A stretch of 60,998 nucleotides of DNA from Bacteroidota bacterium (GTDB lineage Bacteria > Bacteroidota > Bacteroidia > UKL13-3): positions 1 through 60,998 of the forward strand of contig CANGGG010000008.1 in NCBI GenBank assembly GCA_947453415.1. Reading direction: 5' to 3'. This document shows positions 3,811-34,272 of the stretch, piece by piece. Both the position numbers and the translations under genes were made by a program. The notes under the pieces were generated by a model. That model saw nothing but the letters and a program-made list of their open reading frames with translations, made no database searches and was not told the DNA's origin. Every line of letters begins with the position of its first letter. Positions within the stretch are counted from its first letter, which is position 1.

Positions 3811-4260
3811 TTAGAATGATTTTATTACATGAACCACCATTCCCCAAACTATAAAATCATTATCGGCAGTTACTTTAATAGGTTTATACAAATCGTTTTC
3901 AGGAATTAGCCAAATACAATCTTTGTCGAGTTTAATGCGTTTTACGGTAAATTCTCCATCAATATAACACACGGCTATTTTACCATCTTTGGGCTCCAAA
4001 CTTTTATCTATAATTAACAAATCGCCATTGTCAATACCTGCATTTTTCATGGAATTTCCTTTTACTCTTCCATAAAAAGTAGCCGAAGGATTTTTGATAA
4101 ATTCTTTGTTTAAATCAATGGTGGCATCTATAAAATCATCGGCAGGCGAAGGAAAACCAGCACTGATACCTTTTTCTACATAAGGCAGCGATAGTTCCAT
4201 TTCGGTTAACGATGAAAAAAAATCGATGGTTTTACTCGTAAAGATTGGAGGTGTTTTCAC
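3811..4260 (-). CDS. umuD: UmuD, LexA/S24-family self-cleaving subunit of Pol V
   Basis: SOS mutagenesis subunit that cleaves itself and joins UmuC. The cleavage site is the Ala-Gly in GISAGFPSPADD. The serine is in KGNSM and the catalytic lysine in FTVKRIK, 37 residues apart as in E. coli UmuD. The frame stays open to a TTG at 4281, but that TTG is part of a TATCTTTG promoter element at 4279-4286 and is an unlikely start. I chose the GTG at 4260 (VKTPPIF...). An ATG at 4200 (MELSLPYVEKG) is also possible. Expected regulation is by DNA damage, but I cannot identify an SOS box here. Confidence 0.9.
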   Translation of the reverse strand: MKTPPIFTSKTIDFFSSLTEMELSLPYVEKGISAGFPSPADDFIDATIDLNKEFIKNPSATFYGRVKGNSMKNAGIDNGDLLIIDKSLEPKDGKIAVCYIDGEFTVKRIKLDKDCIWLIPENDLYKPIKVTADNDFIVWGMVVHVIKSF

Positions 4261-4278
4261 AAAGAGAAATTTATTCCT

Positions 4279-4286
4279 CAAAGATA
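4279..4286 (-). promoter_or_regulatory. Promoter -7 element of umuDC
   Basis: TATCTTTG on the minus strand is an exact match to the Bacteroidota -7 consensus TAnnTTTG, 18 bases before the chosen GTG start. No clear -33 TTTG is visible, which would fit a regulated promoter. Confidence 0.5.
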
Positions 4287-4378
4287 AAATTATAAATTCA
4301 GATTGATAAAAATTTCAGTGTAAAAAAATGTAAAATGAACAGCAATAGGGGAGAAGATTTTTTTATGTTTTTTTGAGT

Positions 4379-4972
4379 TTAATTAAACTCATCCCAACTT
4401 TCCCAACTCCGAATAGAAATCCCCACAAAAAAAGTTTGTGGTAAATAATCGTAAGCTACATTTAATAATAACCGCCTGTATATTGGAATAAAAGTACCAA
4501 TGGTAAAAGTGGGTAAAATTTTTGTTTCAGCATCATCTACAAACCAAAATTTGCTAATGGTATCTGCGGCATAATATTCTTTGTAAACCTTTTTTCTAGT
4601 AATACCCAATCCTATATAAAGCGGTATTTTATGCGTAATAGCAATGGTAAAGGAAGGAATAATGGCAAAGGAATAAGCAGTACTGGTTTTTCCTGTAAGT
4701 AAGTTTTTTGCTTTTGCATTTTTAAAAAGTTCTAGCTCTCCTGTTTCTCCCTCTTGAGTAGGAGCCAACAAATCTTTAATGCCAAATCGGTAACTTAAAG
4801 CCATACCAAAACTTCTATAAAATACATGATTTCCGCCAAACATGAATTGGTCGTTTGGTAATACACCCATGCCAAAAGCATTATAATTAATGGTGTGTTT
4901 TAGTTTTATTTTTTGCGCTTGCAGCGAAATAAAACAACAAAAGATGGTGGCGAAGGCAATTATTTTTTTCAC
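4379..4972 (-). CDS. Secreted hypothetical protein, probable small outer-membrane beta-barrel
   Basis: I do not recognise a named family. From the GTG at 4972 the protein starts VKKIIAFATIFCCFISLQAQ, a clean signal peptide ending in an AQ cleavage site typical of Bacteroidota. The remaining 180 residues have alternating polar and hydrophobic stretches, many aromatics and a C-terminal pattern like a porin-type barrel. A longer frame from a GTG at 5008 is possible but would place its start 17 bases from the divergent trmD start and add a hydrophobic stretch before the signal peptide. It is divergent from trmD and downstream of nothing obvious. Confidence 0.6.
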   Translation of the reverse strand: MKKIIAFATIFCCFISLQAQKIKLKHTINYNAFGMGVLPNDQFMFGGNHVFYRSFGMALSYRFGIKDLLAPTQEGETGELELFKNAKAKNLLTGKTSTAYSFAIIPSFTIAITHKIPLYIGLGITRKKVYKEYYAADTISKFWFVDDAETKILPTFTIGTFIPIYRRLLLNVAYDYLPQTFFVGISIRSWESWDEFN

Positions 4973-5010
4973 AAATGCGATAATAAAGTTTTTTAGGAAA
5001 AAATACACAC

Positions 5011-5018
5011 TAAATTTG
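5011..5018 (+). promoter_or_regulatory. Promoter -7 element of trmD
   Basis: TAAATTTG matches TAnnTTTG exactly and ends only 7 bases before the trmD ATG at 5026. The transcript would start at or within a few bases of the start codon, so trmD is probably translated from a leaderless or nearly leaderless mRNA. Confidence 0.65.
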
Positions 5019-5025
5019 CGGCCAC

Positions 5026-5700
5026 ATGCGAGTAGATATTATTACCTTACATCCAGCCTTAATTGAAGAAGTTTTTAAACATTCCATGATGAAGCGTGCC
5101 ATTCAAAAAGAATTGGTGGAAGTGCATTTACATAACCTTCGGGAATTTGGTTTTGGCAAACACAAACAAGCCGATGATTATGCTTTTGGTGGCGGGGCGG
5201 GCATGGTAATGATGATTGAACCCATTGATAAATGCATTGAAAAGCTAAAAGCAGAACGCATATACGATGAAATAATTTACATGAGTCCTGATGGAGAAGA
5301 ATTTTGCCAGCCAATGGCCAATCAATTATCAAGCTTAAAAAATATCATTATTCTTTGCGGGCATTACAAAGGAATTGATGAAAGAATTAGGCAATATTTA
5401 ATTACCAAAGAAATTTCGATAGGAAATTATGTTTTAACTGGAGGTGAGTTAGCAGCGGCAGTTGTGGTAGATGCCATTGTGAGATTAATTCCAGGAGTTT
5501 TAAACGATTCACAATCGGCATTAAGCGACTCATTTCAGGACGATTTGATCAGTCCGCCAGTTTATACAAAACCATTTGAATACAAAGGTTGGGCTGTTCC
5601 CGAGATACTTTTAAGTGGCCATCAAGCCAAAATTGAAGACTGGAAAATGGAACAATCATTAGAACGTACCAAACAACGAAGACCTAATTTACTTAAATAG
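5026..5700 (+). CDS. trmD: tRNA (guanine-37-N1)-methyltransferase
   Basis: Methylates N1 of G37 next to the anticodon, using S-adenosylmethionine, and so prevents +1 frameshifts. The SPOUT trefoil-knot motifs are present: [12 protein letters not shown] and [14 protein letters not shown], with the Asp of the family in the C-terminal part ([12 protein letters not shown]). The length of 224 residues fits the family, as does the start [15 protein letters not shown]. It is followed by rplS, a pairing conserved in many bacteria, although here rplS has its own promoter. Confidence 0.97.
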
Positions 5701-5749
5701 TGCAAGTTGAGTAATTATAAAAAATAAATATAAAACTTTTAGAAATATA

Positions 5750-5780
5750 TTTGGATTTTTAGAAAATAGCCTTACTTTCG
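5750..5780 (+). promoter_or_regulatory. Promoter of rplS
   Basis: A -33 TTTG at 5750-5753 is followed 19 bases later by TACTTTCG at 5773-5780, one mismatch from TAnnTTTG. This is one of the few promoters in the window where both elements are visible. Confidence 0.6.
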
Positions 5781-5807
5781 CAGTCCAATTTTTTGACCAG
5801 AATAGTT

Positions 5808-6164
5808 ATGAATTTTACAGAAGCAATAAAATTAGTTGAATCAGAATTTACTACAGGAAAAACTTTTCCTAAGTTTAAAGCTGGTGATACTATCAACGTA
5901 TATTACAAAATTAGAGAAGGCGTTAAAGAACGCATTCAGCAATATCAAGGCGTTTGTTTACAACGCAGAAACAGCAGCATTGCAGAAACATTTACAGTTC
6001 GTAAAATGTCAAACGGTGTTGGTGTTGAACGTATTTTTCCTTTATATAGCTTAAATATTGACAAAATAGAGGTGGTCAGCCGCGGAAAAGTTCGCAGGGC
6101 TCGTTTGTTCTACTTACGCGCTTTAACTGGTAAAGCTGCCAAAATTAAAGAAAAAAGAGGTTAG
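5808..6164 (+). CDS. rplS: 50S ribosomal protein L19
   Basis: Large-subunit protein at the interface with the small subunit. Conserved L19 sequence is visible: [45 protein letters not shown] and the basic end [20 protein letters not shown]. The ATG at 5808 ([11 protein letters not shown]) gives 118 residues, close to the usual length; a TTG at 5793 would add five residues and is not needed. A hairpin terminator follows. Confidence 0.97.
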
Positions 6165-29815: not shown

Positions 29816-29823
29816 TATATTTG
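29816..29823 (+). promoter_or_regulatory. Promoter -7 element of trhO
   Basis: TATATTTG, an exact TAnnTTTG, followed by CAGCCC and the ATG at 29830. The 6-base gap implies a leaderless or nearly leaderless transcript. The TTG that extends the frame to 29821 is part of this element. Confidence 0.65.
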
Positions 29824-29829
29824 CAGCCC

Positions 29830-30762
29830 ATGACGAGTGAACCATTCAATTATTTAGTTTTAGCATATTATAATTATACCCGAATAGACGATGCAGGAAC
29901 TTTTGCTCCATTGCATTTGGCTTATTGTAAAAATTTGAAACTTCGAGGTAGAATTTATGTAGCCCAAGAAGGAATCAACGGAACCATAAGCGGCACCAAA
30001 GAAGCTTGCGAACAGTACATGCGCGATTTAGTGGCTGACCCTCGTTTTGCTACAACTGAATTTAAAATTGACGAAGTTGCTGAACATGCTTTTCAACGCA
30101 TGCATTGTAGGTATAAAACCGAAATTGTTTACAGTGGTTTGCGCGATCCAAATGTTATTGACCCAACCAAAGAAACTGGAAAACACTTAAAAGGGGAGGA
30201 GTTTTTGGCTTTAAAAGACCAAGATGATGTAGTTATTTTAGATGTAAGAAGTAACTATGAAACTCGCTTAGGGAAATTTAAAAATGCTATCACATTAGAC
30301 ATGGAAAATTTCCGTGAATTCCCAGGTAAAATAGCTGAATTAGAAAAGTACAAAGGCAAAAAAATAATTACTTGTTGCACTGGTGGAATTAAATGTGAAA
30401 AGGCCTCAGCACTTTTATTAAAAGAAGGTTTTACCGATGTTTATCAATTACATAACGGCATCATTGGCTATGCAAAAGAAACTGGCGGCAAAGACTTTGA
30501 TGGCATGTTGTATGTTTTTGATGGAAGGGTAAATGTGGCGGTGAATGAAATAAATCCTTCAGTAATTTCTCCATGTAAAAAATGTGGTGGCCCAGCACCT
30601 CGCAATTTGAATTGTGCCAATGTTGAATGCAACGATCAGTTCAACATGTGCGATGCCTGTGCTACGGAAATGGAAGGCGCTTGTTGCGATGCTTGTAAAG
30701 TTCATCCGCGTAAACGTGAATTCAATGGAACCGGTTATTACACTCGCTTTGCCATTGATTAA
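29830..30762 (+). CDS. trhO: tRNA uridine(34) hydroxylase, rhodanese family
   Basis: Oxygen-dependent 5-hydroxylation of the wobble uridine in some tRNAs (YceA/UPF0176 family). The N-terminal acylphosphatase-like domain has YVAQEGINGTISGT, the rhodanese domain holds the active-site cysteine in ITCCTGGIKCEKASALL, and the C-terminus is a Cys-rich zinc-like module (CKKCGGPAP ... CDACATEMEGACCDAC). The ATG at 29830 gives 310 residues (MTSEPFNYLVLAYYNYT). Its stop codon overlaps the last bases of the convergent crtY-blh gene by 4 bp. Confidence 0.95.
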   Translation: MTSEPFNYLVLAYYNYTRIDDAGTFAPLHLAYCKNLKLRGRIYVAQEGINGTISGTKEACEQYMRDLVADPRFATTEFKIDEVAEHAFQRMHCRYKTEIVYSGLRDPNVIDPTKETGKHLKGEEFLALKDQDDVVILDVRSNYETRLGKFKNAITLDMENFREFPGKIAELEKYKGKKIITCCTGGIKCEKASALLLKEGFTDVYQLHNGIIGYAKETGGKDFDGMLYVFDGRVNVAVNEINPSVISPCKKCGGPAPRNLNCANVECNDQFNMCDACATEMEGACCDACKVHPRKREFNGTGYYTRFAID

Positions 30763-32798
30763 AAAATATTTTTTTGTGATTTAAAAGTGTTTTTATAAAA
30801 TACATTCATAGTTAAAATGTGAGGAAAACTTATGCATGATGTAAATATAAAAAAAACAGTAATTATCTGGCTTTGAAATTCAGTTAATAATCTTTTTTCA
30901 ATAAAAATATAAAGTATAAAAAACAATAAAAATGCTCCTAGCGTAAAGGGAAGTGCTTTCATATAAATGGAAGTATTATTAACATTTAAAACTTTTTTTA
31001 AATGACCCCAACCATGTATACTATGTTGCCCAATAAAGTATAAACCAAATGCAGTAATTAAAGGAAGTTTGATGCTTATTGCTAAAAAAACACAGCTTAA
31101 AATCATTGCTAATTTCCTTTCCCAAAACCCCCAAATGAAAACTAATAAAGTCAGAGAAATGCTGATAGTTTTACCGGTTTTTTCATTTATTTGAAATAGT
31201 TCTACGCCCATATTTTTTAAAATAATATTGGTTTCTACTGAATGTCCATATAAAATAATGCCCAATAATATTCCTCCCCAAATCCAGTTTTTAAATCCAT
31301 TATTGTTTTGAATTTTCCATTCATTGATATCTGCTTGTCCGAAATGCCAAATAGAATAAATTAGAAAAAATAATAAAGCAATATTTGGAAAAAGGAGCCA
31401 TAAAATAAAGTACATGAAAGCAGCACCCAAATACTTAATTACAAAATTTAGCTTTATTTTACTGTGTAAATTTCCACTTTCTAATAAATGATCTACAGCA
31501 CCATGGGGTATGCCAACTGTGATTAATCCTAAAATTAAAAGTAATGATTCAACCCATTTAAATTGGTTTGGAAACACTGAATTTGAAATTAATAATCCTA
31601 AGGCTAAAGCAATTAATATAATGGGAATTATCAATGGTTTTAGTTTGACTGAAATATCAAACTTCCATGCTTTTAGAAATGGTTTGAAGGGCAATGAACT
31701 TAATATTTTTATATCTTGAAATATGGAGGTTTTTTCATCCATAAAATTTAAAACATTTTTTGCATCATTTTTTTTAAATAAAGTTTCAAAAATATTTTTT
31801 CCTGATGGTGGGTCATTACGGAGAATTAATAATAATAATCTATCGTAAAACTTAAACCTACTAGCGTAATTAGTTACTTTAAGTTGATGCAAATTTTGCA
31901 AATTATTTGCTATATTTTCTGCATGTTTAAACATGTTTTTAAAAGCATAACCAGTACTAGGTTTTATTGCACCTGACCTTCCTCCAATTGAAATTACATT
32001 TGGAATATTATCATTTAAAATAGCAGCATTACTCATGGGAATATTACCAATTTCAATAGCTGCTATTTTATATGTTCCAAATCGCTTAGTTATGTATTTA
32101 TCAAGGATTGGTTCAGCTTCTTTTTGCATCAATTGTGAAACACCAAATCGCGTTAATTCTACTAAAAGTTTATTTTCACTAAATGGAAGTATATAAACAA
32201 ACTGTGTATATTCATTTTGTTCAACATCAAAGTCCATTAAATCTACGCAATTATAATCCGGTAGTTTATTTTCTACTTCAATTACAAAACCCAAAAAAGA
32301 TTGAAGTAGATGAGATTCATTTTTTTTAAGGGTTAAATAGTTAGGAGGACGACTATCGAAAACTGTTTTTGAAAGAAAAGTTTCATCATTAGTAATTACC
32401 GCCACTCCATGTTCCGTTTTTTTAAATTCTAAAACGGGCTGATGAATGCGAAGAATATTATATTTTTCAATGATTCTTTTTAACTCTTTATACAAATCAA
32501 AACTTGAAATATAGAAATATTTCATTGGGTGAAGCAATTGAGGTTTATTTGAATTTACGCTAACTTTTTCCCATTGATGGCTAATTAAATGTTTACATCG
32601 TTTTACAATTAAATCCTCTGAATTTTCCCAAAAGCAATAGGTCTTATCGTTTTTCAATTTGTTATCAGGATCAATAATAACAATGTTTTTTCCGTGTAAC
32701 ATTCCACGTTCATCCAAACTCATTAATAATAATATTGCCGATGCTCCAGCACCAGCAAATAAATAATCAATATAAGAAGTTTGAATTTGATTTTCCAT
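30759..32798 (-). CDS. Fused lycopene beta-cyclase (CrtY) and beta-carotene 15,15'-dioxygenase (Blh)
   Basis: One 679-residue protein carrying two consecutive retinal-pathway enzymes. Residues 1 to about 375 are CrtY: the dinucleotide-binding start DYLFAGAGASAILLLMS, then IIDPDNKLKNDKTYCFWE, TQFVYILPFSENKLLVELTRFG, and IGGRSGAIKPSTGYAFKNMF. Residues about 390-679 are Blh/Brp: a multi-pass membrane protein with PHGAVDH (H432, H437), WHFGQAD (H485), QHSIHGWGHL (H592, H595, H599) and SFPHILTM (H660), the histidines expected to bind iron. A cleavage of lycopene to beta-carotene and then two retinals is the predicted chemistry. It is directly behind the rhodopsin gene, separated by a terminator hairpin. 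I checked for a stop or frameshift at the junction and found none. Confidence 0.93.
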   Translation of the reverse strand: MENQIQTSYIDYLFAGAGASAILLLMSLDERGMLHGKNIVIIDPDNKLKNDKTYCFWENSEDLIVKRCKHLISHQWEKVSVNSNKPQLLHPMKYFYISSFDLYKELKRIIEKYNILRIHQPVLEFKKTEHGVAVITNDETFLSKTVFDSRPPNYLTLKKNESHLLQSFLGFVIEVENKLPDYNCVDLMDFDVEQNEYTQFVYILPFSENKLLVELTRFGVSQLMQKEAEPILDKYITKRFGTYKIAAIEIGNIPMSNAAILNDNIPNVISIGGRSGAIKPSTGYAFKNMFKHAENIANNLQNLHQLKVTNYASRFKFYDRLLLLILRNDPPSGKNIFETLFKKNDAKNVLNFMDEKTSIFQDIKILSSLPFKPFLKAWKFDISVKLKPLIIPIILIALALGLLISNSVFPNQFKWVESLLLILGLITVGIPHGAVDHLLESGNLHSKIKLNFVIKYLGAAFMYFILWLLFPNIALLFFLIYSIWHFGQADINEWKIQNNNGFKNWIWGGILLGIILYGHSVETNIILKNMGVELFQINEKTGKTISISLTLLVFIWGFWERKLAMILSCVFLAISIKLPLITAFGLYFIGQHSIHGWGHLKKVLNVNNTSIYMKALPFTLGAFLLFFILYIFIEKRLLTEFQSQIITVFFIFTSCISFPHILTMNVFYKNTFKSQKNIF

Positions 32799-32811: not shown

Positions 32812-32852
32812 AAAAAAAGGGGGTTCCTTTTTGATTAAAGAAACCCCCTTTT
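32812..32852 (-). terminator. Terminator/attenuator between rhodopsin and crtY-blh
   Basis: A 16-bp stem (AAAAGGGGGTTTCTTT with AAAGGAACCCCCTTTT) followed by seven T's, ending 13 bases before the crtY-blh ATG. One pair is C-A on the plus strand but G-U in the minus-strand RNA, so it is built for minus-strand transcription. It should end most rhodopsin transcripts and let a fraction read into crtY-blh. Confidence 0.85.
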
Positions 32853-32871
32853 AATTATTTATTGTATATGA

Positions 32872-33588
32872 TTAGTCTTCGTTTCTACTTAATGTATAAA
32901 TTACTAAACCGAAACCAATTTTATTGATTGCGTCAGCAATGTTATAAACAATATCCATAGCATGTGAAGCTGCTGCAGGATCTGCTACTAATTGAATTCC
33001 AAATAATCCACCTGGAGTTCCTAAAATGTAACCCAAAGGATAAATTGCCCAACCAACTAATACAAACCAAGCTAAAACTCTAGTTGCTTTTGCTACTTGT
33101 TTTCCAGCTGTTTGTGCTAAATTAGCAACTTCACCAAACCATACTAAGTATGCAATGTAGAAATAAGCTGCTCCTGAAATTACTCCCCACATTACACTGC
33201 TTCCTCTGTCAATTGTTTCACCGAAATATCCGGTTACAAGCATTACTAAAGAAGCTAAAATTAATTTCCAAAGTAATGAAATTTTTGCACCTGCTTTTTT
33301 AGTGATTAAGTAGAACTCAACGCACATTAAAGGTACTGTAAGAATCCAATCAACATATCTAAAGAATGTTGGTGAATCACCTGTTGCTAAATTGTAACCT
33401 CTCATGTAGTAGTAATGAACTGCTGCAATAAAAGTTATTAATCCAGAAACTAAAACTGATGTTCTCCATTTTGCATTAGTGTTACCTAATTCGAAAAAGA
33501 AGAATACTGATGCGGCCATCATGGCCATTGTTCCGATAAAAAACGTAAATGCTACGTAGTTATCACTTGCAATTTTTAAATGCTCCAT
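32872..33588 (-). CDS. Proteorhodopsin-type light-driven proton pump
   Basis: Seven-helix retinal protein. The motif triad is DTE: Asp80 (proton acceptor), Thr84 and Glu91 (proton donor) in RYVDWILTVPLMCVEF, equivalent to D97, T101 and E108 of green proteorhodopsin, so it should pump protons outward. Lys223 in ADAINKIGFG binds retinal, and His58 matches the acceptor partner H75. The tuning site (GPR 105) is Met88, a green-absorbing type. Gly135 in MWGVISGAA aligns with GPR Phe152 and Gloeobacter rhodopsin Gly178, the opening that can hold a carotenoid antenna. The 238-residue length and MEHLKIASDNY start are typical, with no signal peptide. It is upstream of crtY-blh on the same strand. Confidence 0.96.
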   Translation of the reverse strand: MEHLKIASDNYVAFTFFIGTMAMMAASVFFFFELGNTNAKWRTSVLVSGLITFIAAVHYYYMRGYNLATGDSPTFFRYVDWILTVPLMCVEFYLITKKAGAKISLLWKLILASLVMLVTGYFGETIDRGSSVMWGVISGAAYFYIAYLVWFGEVANLAQTAGKQVAKATRVLAWFVLVGWAIYPLGYILGTPGGLFGIQLVADPAAASHAMDIVYNIADAINKIGFGLVIYTLSRNED

Positions 33589-33690: not shown

Positions 33691-34272
33691 TTATTTTTTT
33701 GAAATAGCATTTCTAATTTTACTCAAAAATTCAGGAGTAATTCCCAAATAGGAAGCTATAAGTACATTTGGTATCCGATTACAAATATTAGGATATTGTT
33801 CTAAAAAAAATTGATACCTTTCCTCCGCCTTTGAACTAATATTTTGTAAAATTCTGTTTTCAAGTTCCATAAATTTATTTTCAATCAAAACACGAAAAGT
33901 TCTATCAAATTTTTGATAATGAGTAAAAAGATACATCAAATTTGAATTATCAATTTGTATAATTGTGGATGGCTCTATTGCATCTATATAAAGTAAGCTT
34001 TGTTTTTTATTATGAAAGCTATTGATGTCACAAATCCAATCATTTTCTGACGCAAAATGTAAAATATGTTCAGCTCCATTTTTGTCAACTGTATACATTT
34101 TAAACAAGCCTGAAACGATAAAAGTATAATTATTGCAAATGTCATTTTTTTGCAAAATAAATTCTTTTCTTTTAACATTTCTTTCTATAACTCTATTTGA
34201 TAATTCAGTAATTTCTTCATCATTTAAAGGGATGTAATTGCTAAAATGAGTCAATAGTTTATTTATATTCAT
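33691..34272 (-). CDS. Crp/Fnr-type transcriptional regulator
   Basis: An N-terminal cyclic-nucleotide-binding-like beta roll (about residues 30-120; NNYTFIVSGLFKMYTVDKNG, HFASENDWICDI) and a short C-terminal helix-turn-helix (VLIASYLGITPEFLSKIRN). This is the compact 190-residue form common in Bacteroidota. The cAMP-binding arginine motif of E. coli Crp is not evident, so the ligand is unknown. It is 102 bases upstream of the rhodopsin gene in the same direction and could regulate it or be cotranscribed. The sequence does not settle this. Confidence 0.85.
   Translation of the reverse strand: MNINKLLTHFSNYIPLNDEEITELSNRVIERNVKRKEFILQKNDICNNYTFIVSGLFKMYTVDKNGAEHILHFASENDWICDINSFHNKKQSLLYIDAIEPSTIIQIDNSNLMYLFTHYQKFDRTFRVLIENKFMELENRILQNISSKAEERYQFFLEQYPNICNRIPNVLIASYLGITPEFLSKIRNAISKK

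Follow-up and report, generated by a model that had tools for sequence, protein, structure and literature searches.

A Bacteroidota proteorhodopsin with a putative 3-hydroxy carotenoid antenna site and an adjacent CrtY-Blh fusion gene

The flavobacterial proteorhodopsin KR1 binds zeaxanthin and lutein, and its helix-F site consists of Y, M, T, and D (PMC12308411). Zeaxanthin binding by Kin4B8 depends on Ser208, with S208A nearly abolishing it, and beta-carotene does not bind Kin4B8 (PMC12308411). The polar residues found at the neighboring position 209 are Tyr, Asp, and Glu in Kin4B8, KR1, and EinA29G6, respectively, and without the hydroxyl of Tyr209 the energy transfer of Kin4B8 is roughly halved (PMC12308411). 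Moreover, binding is dominated by the carotenoid ring near retinal, and salinixanthin, which lacks the second ring, still binds Kin4B8 (PMC12308411).

The opsin identified in the window, which is the whole stretch of 60,998 nucleotides analyzed in this study, is of an already known kind, as the antenna-binding flavobacterial proteorhodopsins KR1 and NM-R1 were known before. The features of its locus are listed in Table 1. With moderate confidence, we favor the explanation that this opsin is a proton pump, that its G135 and T191 accommodate a 3-hydroxy carotenoid antenna, which is probably monocyclic, and that its retinal is supplied by a CrtY-Blh fusion protein encoded next to it.

Table 1. 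Features of the opsin locus, with positions in the window
Feature	Position	Strand	Evidence or remark
TrhO-type tRNA uridine hydroxylase (rhodanese) gene	29821-30762	+	
CrtY-Blh fusion, 679 aa, 73 bp downstream of opsin	30759..32798	-	PF05834 and PF15461 in one ORF
Blh (beta-carotene 15,15'-dioxygenase) domain of fusion	30798..31529	-	PF15461, residues 424-667, 3.9e-34
CrtY domain of fusion	31671..32768	-	PF05834, residues 11-376, 2e-42
Strong hairpin like an intrinsic terminator (16 bp stem and T run), between opsin and fusion	32815..32852	-	
DTE green-type proteorhodopsin, 238 aa	32872..33588	-	PF01036 (Bac_rhodopsin), E=8.8e-41; best PDB matches 9jov/9jou, E about 1e-88
Codon of T191, equivalent to Kin4B8 S208 (anchors 3-OH of zeaxanthin)	33016..33018	-	Alignment; S208 role from PMC12308411
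Codon of Y187, equivalent to Kin4B8 Y204	33028..33030	-	Alignment; known carotenoid-binding rhodopsins conserve this Tyr
Codon of G135, fenestration glycine	33184..33186	-	Alignment to GPR F152, Kin4B8 G153, XR G156, GR G178, NM-R1 G142
CRP/FNR-like cyclic-nucleotide-binding protein, directly upstream of opsin	33691-34272	-	

The opsin and its putative carotenoid site

The residues to which an earlier note on this DNA had drawn attention, H58, D80, T84, M88, E91, G135, and K223, were each present in the opsin. A MAFFT multiple alignment that combined the opsin with those of 43 sampled Bacteroidota genomes and with six chains of known structure placed D80, T84, E91, K223, and H58 at D97, T101, E108, K231, and H75 of green proteorhodopsin (GPR), respectively. 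The DTE proton-pump motif was complete, with the Asp acceptor, the Thr and the Glu donor in helix C, the Schiff-base Lys and a His near the acceptor. As a member of the proteorhodopsin clade of Bacteroidota, the opsin is predicted to pump protons outward in the light, and D80 would be the proton acceptor, E91 would be the donor, retinal would be carried by K223 and green tuning would come from M88. Judged by its relatives, the host bacterium is of a freshwater type.

The same alignment supported the proposal of the earlier note that G135 is equivalent to F152 of GPR and G178 of Gloeobacter rhodopsin (GR). F152 of GPR is F136 of 8cnk, with an offset of 16 given that D81 of that chain is D97. 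The column also held Trp in Med12 PR (4jq6). A pairwise HMMER alignment to GPR placed G135 on P150 instead, with a two-residue insertion spanning F152. This placement was dropped, as both the multiple alignment and an unbroken helix E favor F152. In the predicted model, whose confidence is moderate (mean pLDDT of 75.8), the helix of residues 128-150 continued unbroken across G135. Gly was found at this position in 80 of the 80 closest relatives, whose record titles mark most of them as freshwater Bacteroidota. In addition, 395 Bacteroidota genomes were sampled evenly, and a related opsin was found in 43 of them. By motif, all of these opsins were DTE pumps, and each had the Gly, which was common to xanthorhodopsin-like and proteorhodopsin-like members. 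A crtZ homolog was found in 23 of the 43 genomes and none was detected in the other 20. Given that the Gly was universal with or without crtZ, it is by itself no argument for an antenna here, and Gly135 was ruled out as a specific sign of antenna use.

The Ser or Thr at the position of Kin4B8 208 and the Tyr at that of 204 were both present in the opsin as T191 and Y187, and both residues were invariant among 22 aligned close relatives. The polar residue at the 209 position, which is common in rhodopsins with such an antenna but does not define them, was absent, and P192 was found instead. P192 was discarded as evidence against binding, since zeaxanthin-bound NM-R1 also has Pro. Among the 43 genomes, crtZ was found in 15 of the 16 with Thr or Ser at the 191 position versus 8 of the 27 others (Fisher p 7.6e-5), counts that ignore shared ancestry and that include the most distant opsins, in which the alignment at this position is less certain. 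The link between Thr/Ser191 and crtZ is an association, not proof. By this association, Thr191 is a better marker than Gly for the use of a 3-hydroxy antenna, and Thr or Ser at the 208 position provides a marker that is both testable and useful.

The carotenoid antenna that the earlier note had suggested is plausible and now better supported, by a close homolog with bound zeaxanthin, by crtZ in the genome and by Thr191 at the anchor of the 3-OH, although the argument from Gly that the note had used is weak. Judged from the sequence, antenna binding by the opsin is likely, because NM-R1, which is 63% identical, is zeaxanthin-bound and matches the opsin in the G, Y, T, and P of the site. G135 would leave a side window beside the retinal ring, through which the 3-hydroxylated beta-ring of the carotenoid would enter, and T191 would anchor this ring. 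In the manner of zeaxanthin-bound NM-R1, KR1, and Kin4B8, the carotenoid would then pass the energy of blue-green light to retinal.

The CrtY-Blh fusion gene and its surroundings

Both parts of the fusion passed family profiles. The Blh part scored 137.9 bits against a cut-off of 95.25 with TIGR03753, and the CrtY part scored 146 bits against 23.4 with PF05834 but was below the cut-offs of NCBIfam TIGR01789 and TIGR01790. Across 44 fusions, conservation was at least 95% for six histidine residues of Blh (His432, 437, 485, 519, 592, and 660), and the cyclase motifs were conserved too. The fusion was found at the opsin loci of at least 47 of 80 close relatives, a minimum because some of these loci are truncated. 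The fused CrtY halves formed one clade with a support of 99/98 and a single change in all 200 bootstrap trees, and the members of this clade were mostly 37-58% identical to the fusion of the window. In two genomes, G146 and G194, CrtY and Blh were encoded by separate neighboring genes next to the opsin gene, and the cyclase of G146 was sister to the fused clade. Given that this nearest unfused cyclase is found beside separate blh and opsin genes, our results suggest a single fusion event of adjacent operon genes. Retinal is probably made by the fusion, which would cyclize both ends of lycopene and then cleave the resulting beta-carotene to retinal in one polypeptide, and channeling might occur within it. 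A description of a bacterial CrtY-Blh fusion was not found in the literature searched, which comprised open-licence papers, and its novelty is thus not established.

The arrangement of these genes was also compared among the relatives. CrtY and Blh were separate ORFs in four relatives, and only Blh was detected in another seven. The fusion was upstream of the opsin on the same strand in seven relatives and, in one more, where it spans 3856-5826 of that relative's sequence, upstream on the opposite strand, so that the two genes were divergent. The position of the fusion on the other side of the opsin in these eight relatives indicates that the pair stays together through rearrangement. Hairpins that differed in sequence were found at the same place between opsin and fusion in 26 of 50 relatives, while 0.1 were expected from simple shuffles. 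The hairpin suggests that expression of the fusion is attenuated relative to that of the opsin, which would allow much opsin and little enzyme to be made. The CRP-like gene was rejected as a conserved partner of the opsin, as it was directly upstream in only 4 of 68 relatives. The TrhO-type gene converges on crtY-blh and overlaps its 3' end by 4 bases.

Carotenoid genes elsewhere in the genome and two proposed branches from lycopene

As the earlier note had stated for the window, no carotenoid hydroxylase turned up among the examined neighbors of the opsin gene. The genome's contigs were searched by protein family for the pathway genes, and crtZ, for which the note had pointed to the rest of the genome, was found on contig 23 (150 aa, PF04116). 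On this contig, which is not that of the opsin, crtD, cruF, crtZ, and crtYcd form one cluster. CrtD scored 664 bits against a cut-off of 500 (NF042421), CruF matched PF04240, and CrtYcd matched PF18916 and TIGR03462. Contig 81 contains a CrtI-type desaturase gene together with a phytoene synthase-family gene (PF00494). No ketolase was recognized among the four PF00487 proteins of the genome, none of which matched a ketolase model and two of which matched no NCBIfam model at all. The reading of these matches as CrtW was dropped, as the proteins resemble fatty-acid desaturases or AlkB-like proteins.

The carotenoid would be made by CrtB, CrtI, CrtYcd, CruF, CrtD, and CrtZ, all of which are encoded away from the opsin. 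The product expected by established carotenoid chemistry from CrtYcd, CruF, CrtD, and CrtZ without CrtA-OH is saproxanthin, which has one 3-hydroxylated beta-ring. The carotenoid of this bacterium is probably a monocyclic 3-hydroxy xanthophyll rather than zeaxanthin. This would be saproxanthin or, in the presence of a 2'-hydroxylase, myxol. Action of CrtZ on beta-carotene might yield zeaxanthin as well. Given that the ring near retinal dominates binding and that salinixanthin binds Kin4B8, a monocyclic 3-hydroxy carotenoid would be a sound candidate for the antenna. No report of such a carotenoid as a rhodopsin antenna was found in the open-licence literature searched.

Among 21 genomes with the fusion, a second lycopene cyclase was found in all 18 with CruF (CrtYcd in 14 and a separate CrtY in 4) and in none of the 3 without CruF; these three are all from one genus, and the counts ignore shared ancestry. 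Among the genomes without the fusion, two or more cyclases were found in 3 of 14 with CruF versus 0 of 19 without. The other 11 with CruF had a single detected cyclase, and a second cyclase is thus not obligatory. Given the strict co-occurrence of the second cyclase with CruF in the fusion genomes, our results suggest a division of labor, in which the fusion serves retinal and the second cyclase serves the CruF-CrtD-CrtZ branch to the hydroxy-carotenoid. We tentatively extend this to a widespread freshwater proteorhodopsin clade, for which it is conceivable that a monocyclic 3-hydroxy antenna of the saproxanthin or myxol type is used and that lycopene is divided between two dedicated cyclases, CrtY-Blh for retinal and, for the antenna, either CrtYcd or another CrtY that works with CruF, CrtD, and CrtZ. 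This reading yields the testable and useful prediction that a single lycopene pool serves both pump and antenna in freshwater Bacteroidota via two separate cyclases, one of which is fused to the retinal-making enzyme. If it is true, the antenna pigment of many freshwater proteorhodopsins differs from those studied so far.

Other readings of the antenna site were also considered. The site could hold zeaxanthin itself, made by CrtZ from the beta-carotene of either cyclase, with the monocyclic products serving only as membrane pigment. Zeaxanthin is the ligand in the NM-R1 and Kin4B8 structures and binds KR1, and zeaxanthin-type products fit better in the three fusion genomes that lack CruF, which have crtZ and T191. 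Here, however, CruF and CrtD share the crtZ cluster, and Nonlabens spongiae, which has the same set of genes plus CrtA-OH, produces myxol as its primary carotenoid (PMC11855829). Thus, we consider zeaxanthin as the antenna unlikely. A retinal-only pump, whose side window is open but empty and whose Gly was inherited throughout the Bacteroidota DTE pumps with no current use, is in our view very unlikely. Such a pump would agree with the Gly of all 43 sampled opsins, including those from the 20 genomes without detected crtZ, but keto carotenoids may serve these genomes. Moreover, the invariance of Thr191 and Y187 in the close relatives, the tracking of crtZ by Thr/Ser191, and the zeaxanthin bound to the 63% identical homolog all argue against an empty site.

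The fusion part of our explanation has its own alternative, that two neighboring operon genes were joined by chance with no consequence for flux. The separate, side-by-side CrtY and Blh genes of G146 and G194 and the sister position of the G146 cyclase agree with a chance join, but the fused frame has been kept across a clade of such diverged members and, where the fusion is present, the second cyclase follows CruF. A join without consequence is therefore possible but somewhat doubtful.

Comparison with known systems

Similar to the fusion of the window, CrtI-CrtB-CrtYc/d-Blh of Thecamonas trahens joins a lycopene cyclase to Blh in one protein. Its cyclase, however, is of the CrtYc/d type and is accompanied by CrtI and CrtB, whereas the fusion of the window is bacterial and combines a CrtY-type cyclase with Blh only. 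The myxol cluster of Nonlabens spongiae (crtI-B-Z-D-cruF-crtY-crtA-OH) also resembles that of this genome, with CrtZ, CrtD, CruF, and a cyclase together. Different from that of Nonlabens spongiae, the cluster here has CrtYcd as its cyclase, and the genes for CrtB and CrtI are found on a separate contig.

Kin4B8, Salinibacter xanthorhodopsin (XR) and GR possess the equivalent Gly, but they belong to the xanthorhodopsin family and are only about 30% identical to the opsin of the window. In addition, XR and GR have Met at the position of Thr191 and use 4-keto carotenoids (PMC12308411). KR1 of Dokdonia eikasta and EinA29G6, which are binders of 3-hydroxy xanthophylls from the PR family, have Tyr and Thr at the 204 and 208 positions like the opsin of the window, but have Asp or Glu where this opsin has Pro. 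The closest solved structure is that of zeaxanthin-bound NM-R1 (PDB 9jou) from Nonlabens marinus. At 63% identity, the two opsins share the DTE motif, Met at the tuning position, the Gly of the side window and the Y-x-x-x-T-P residues of the site. They differ at the 188 position, where NM-R1 has Met and the opsin of the window has Ile, and in their hosts, as the bacterium of the window is of a freshwater type by its relatives and its genome predicts a monocyclic carotenoid.
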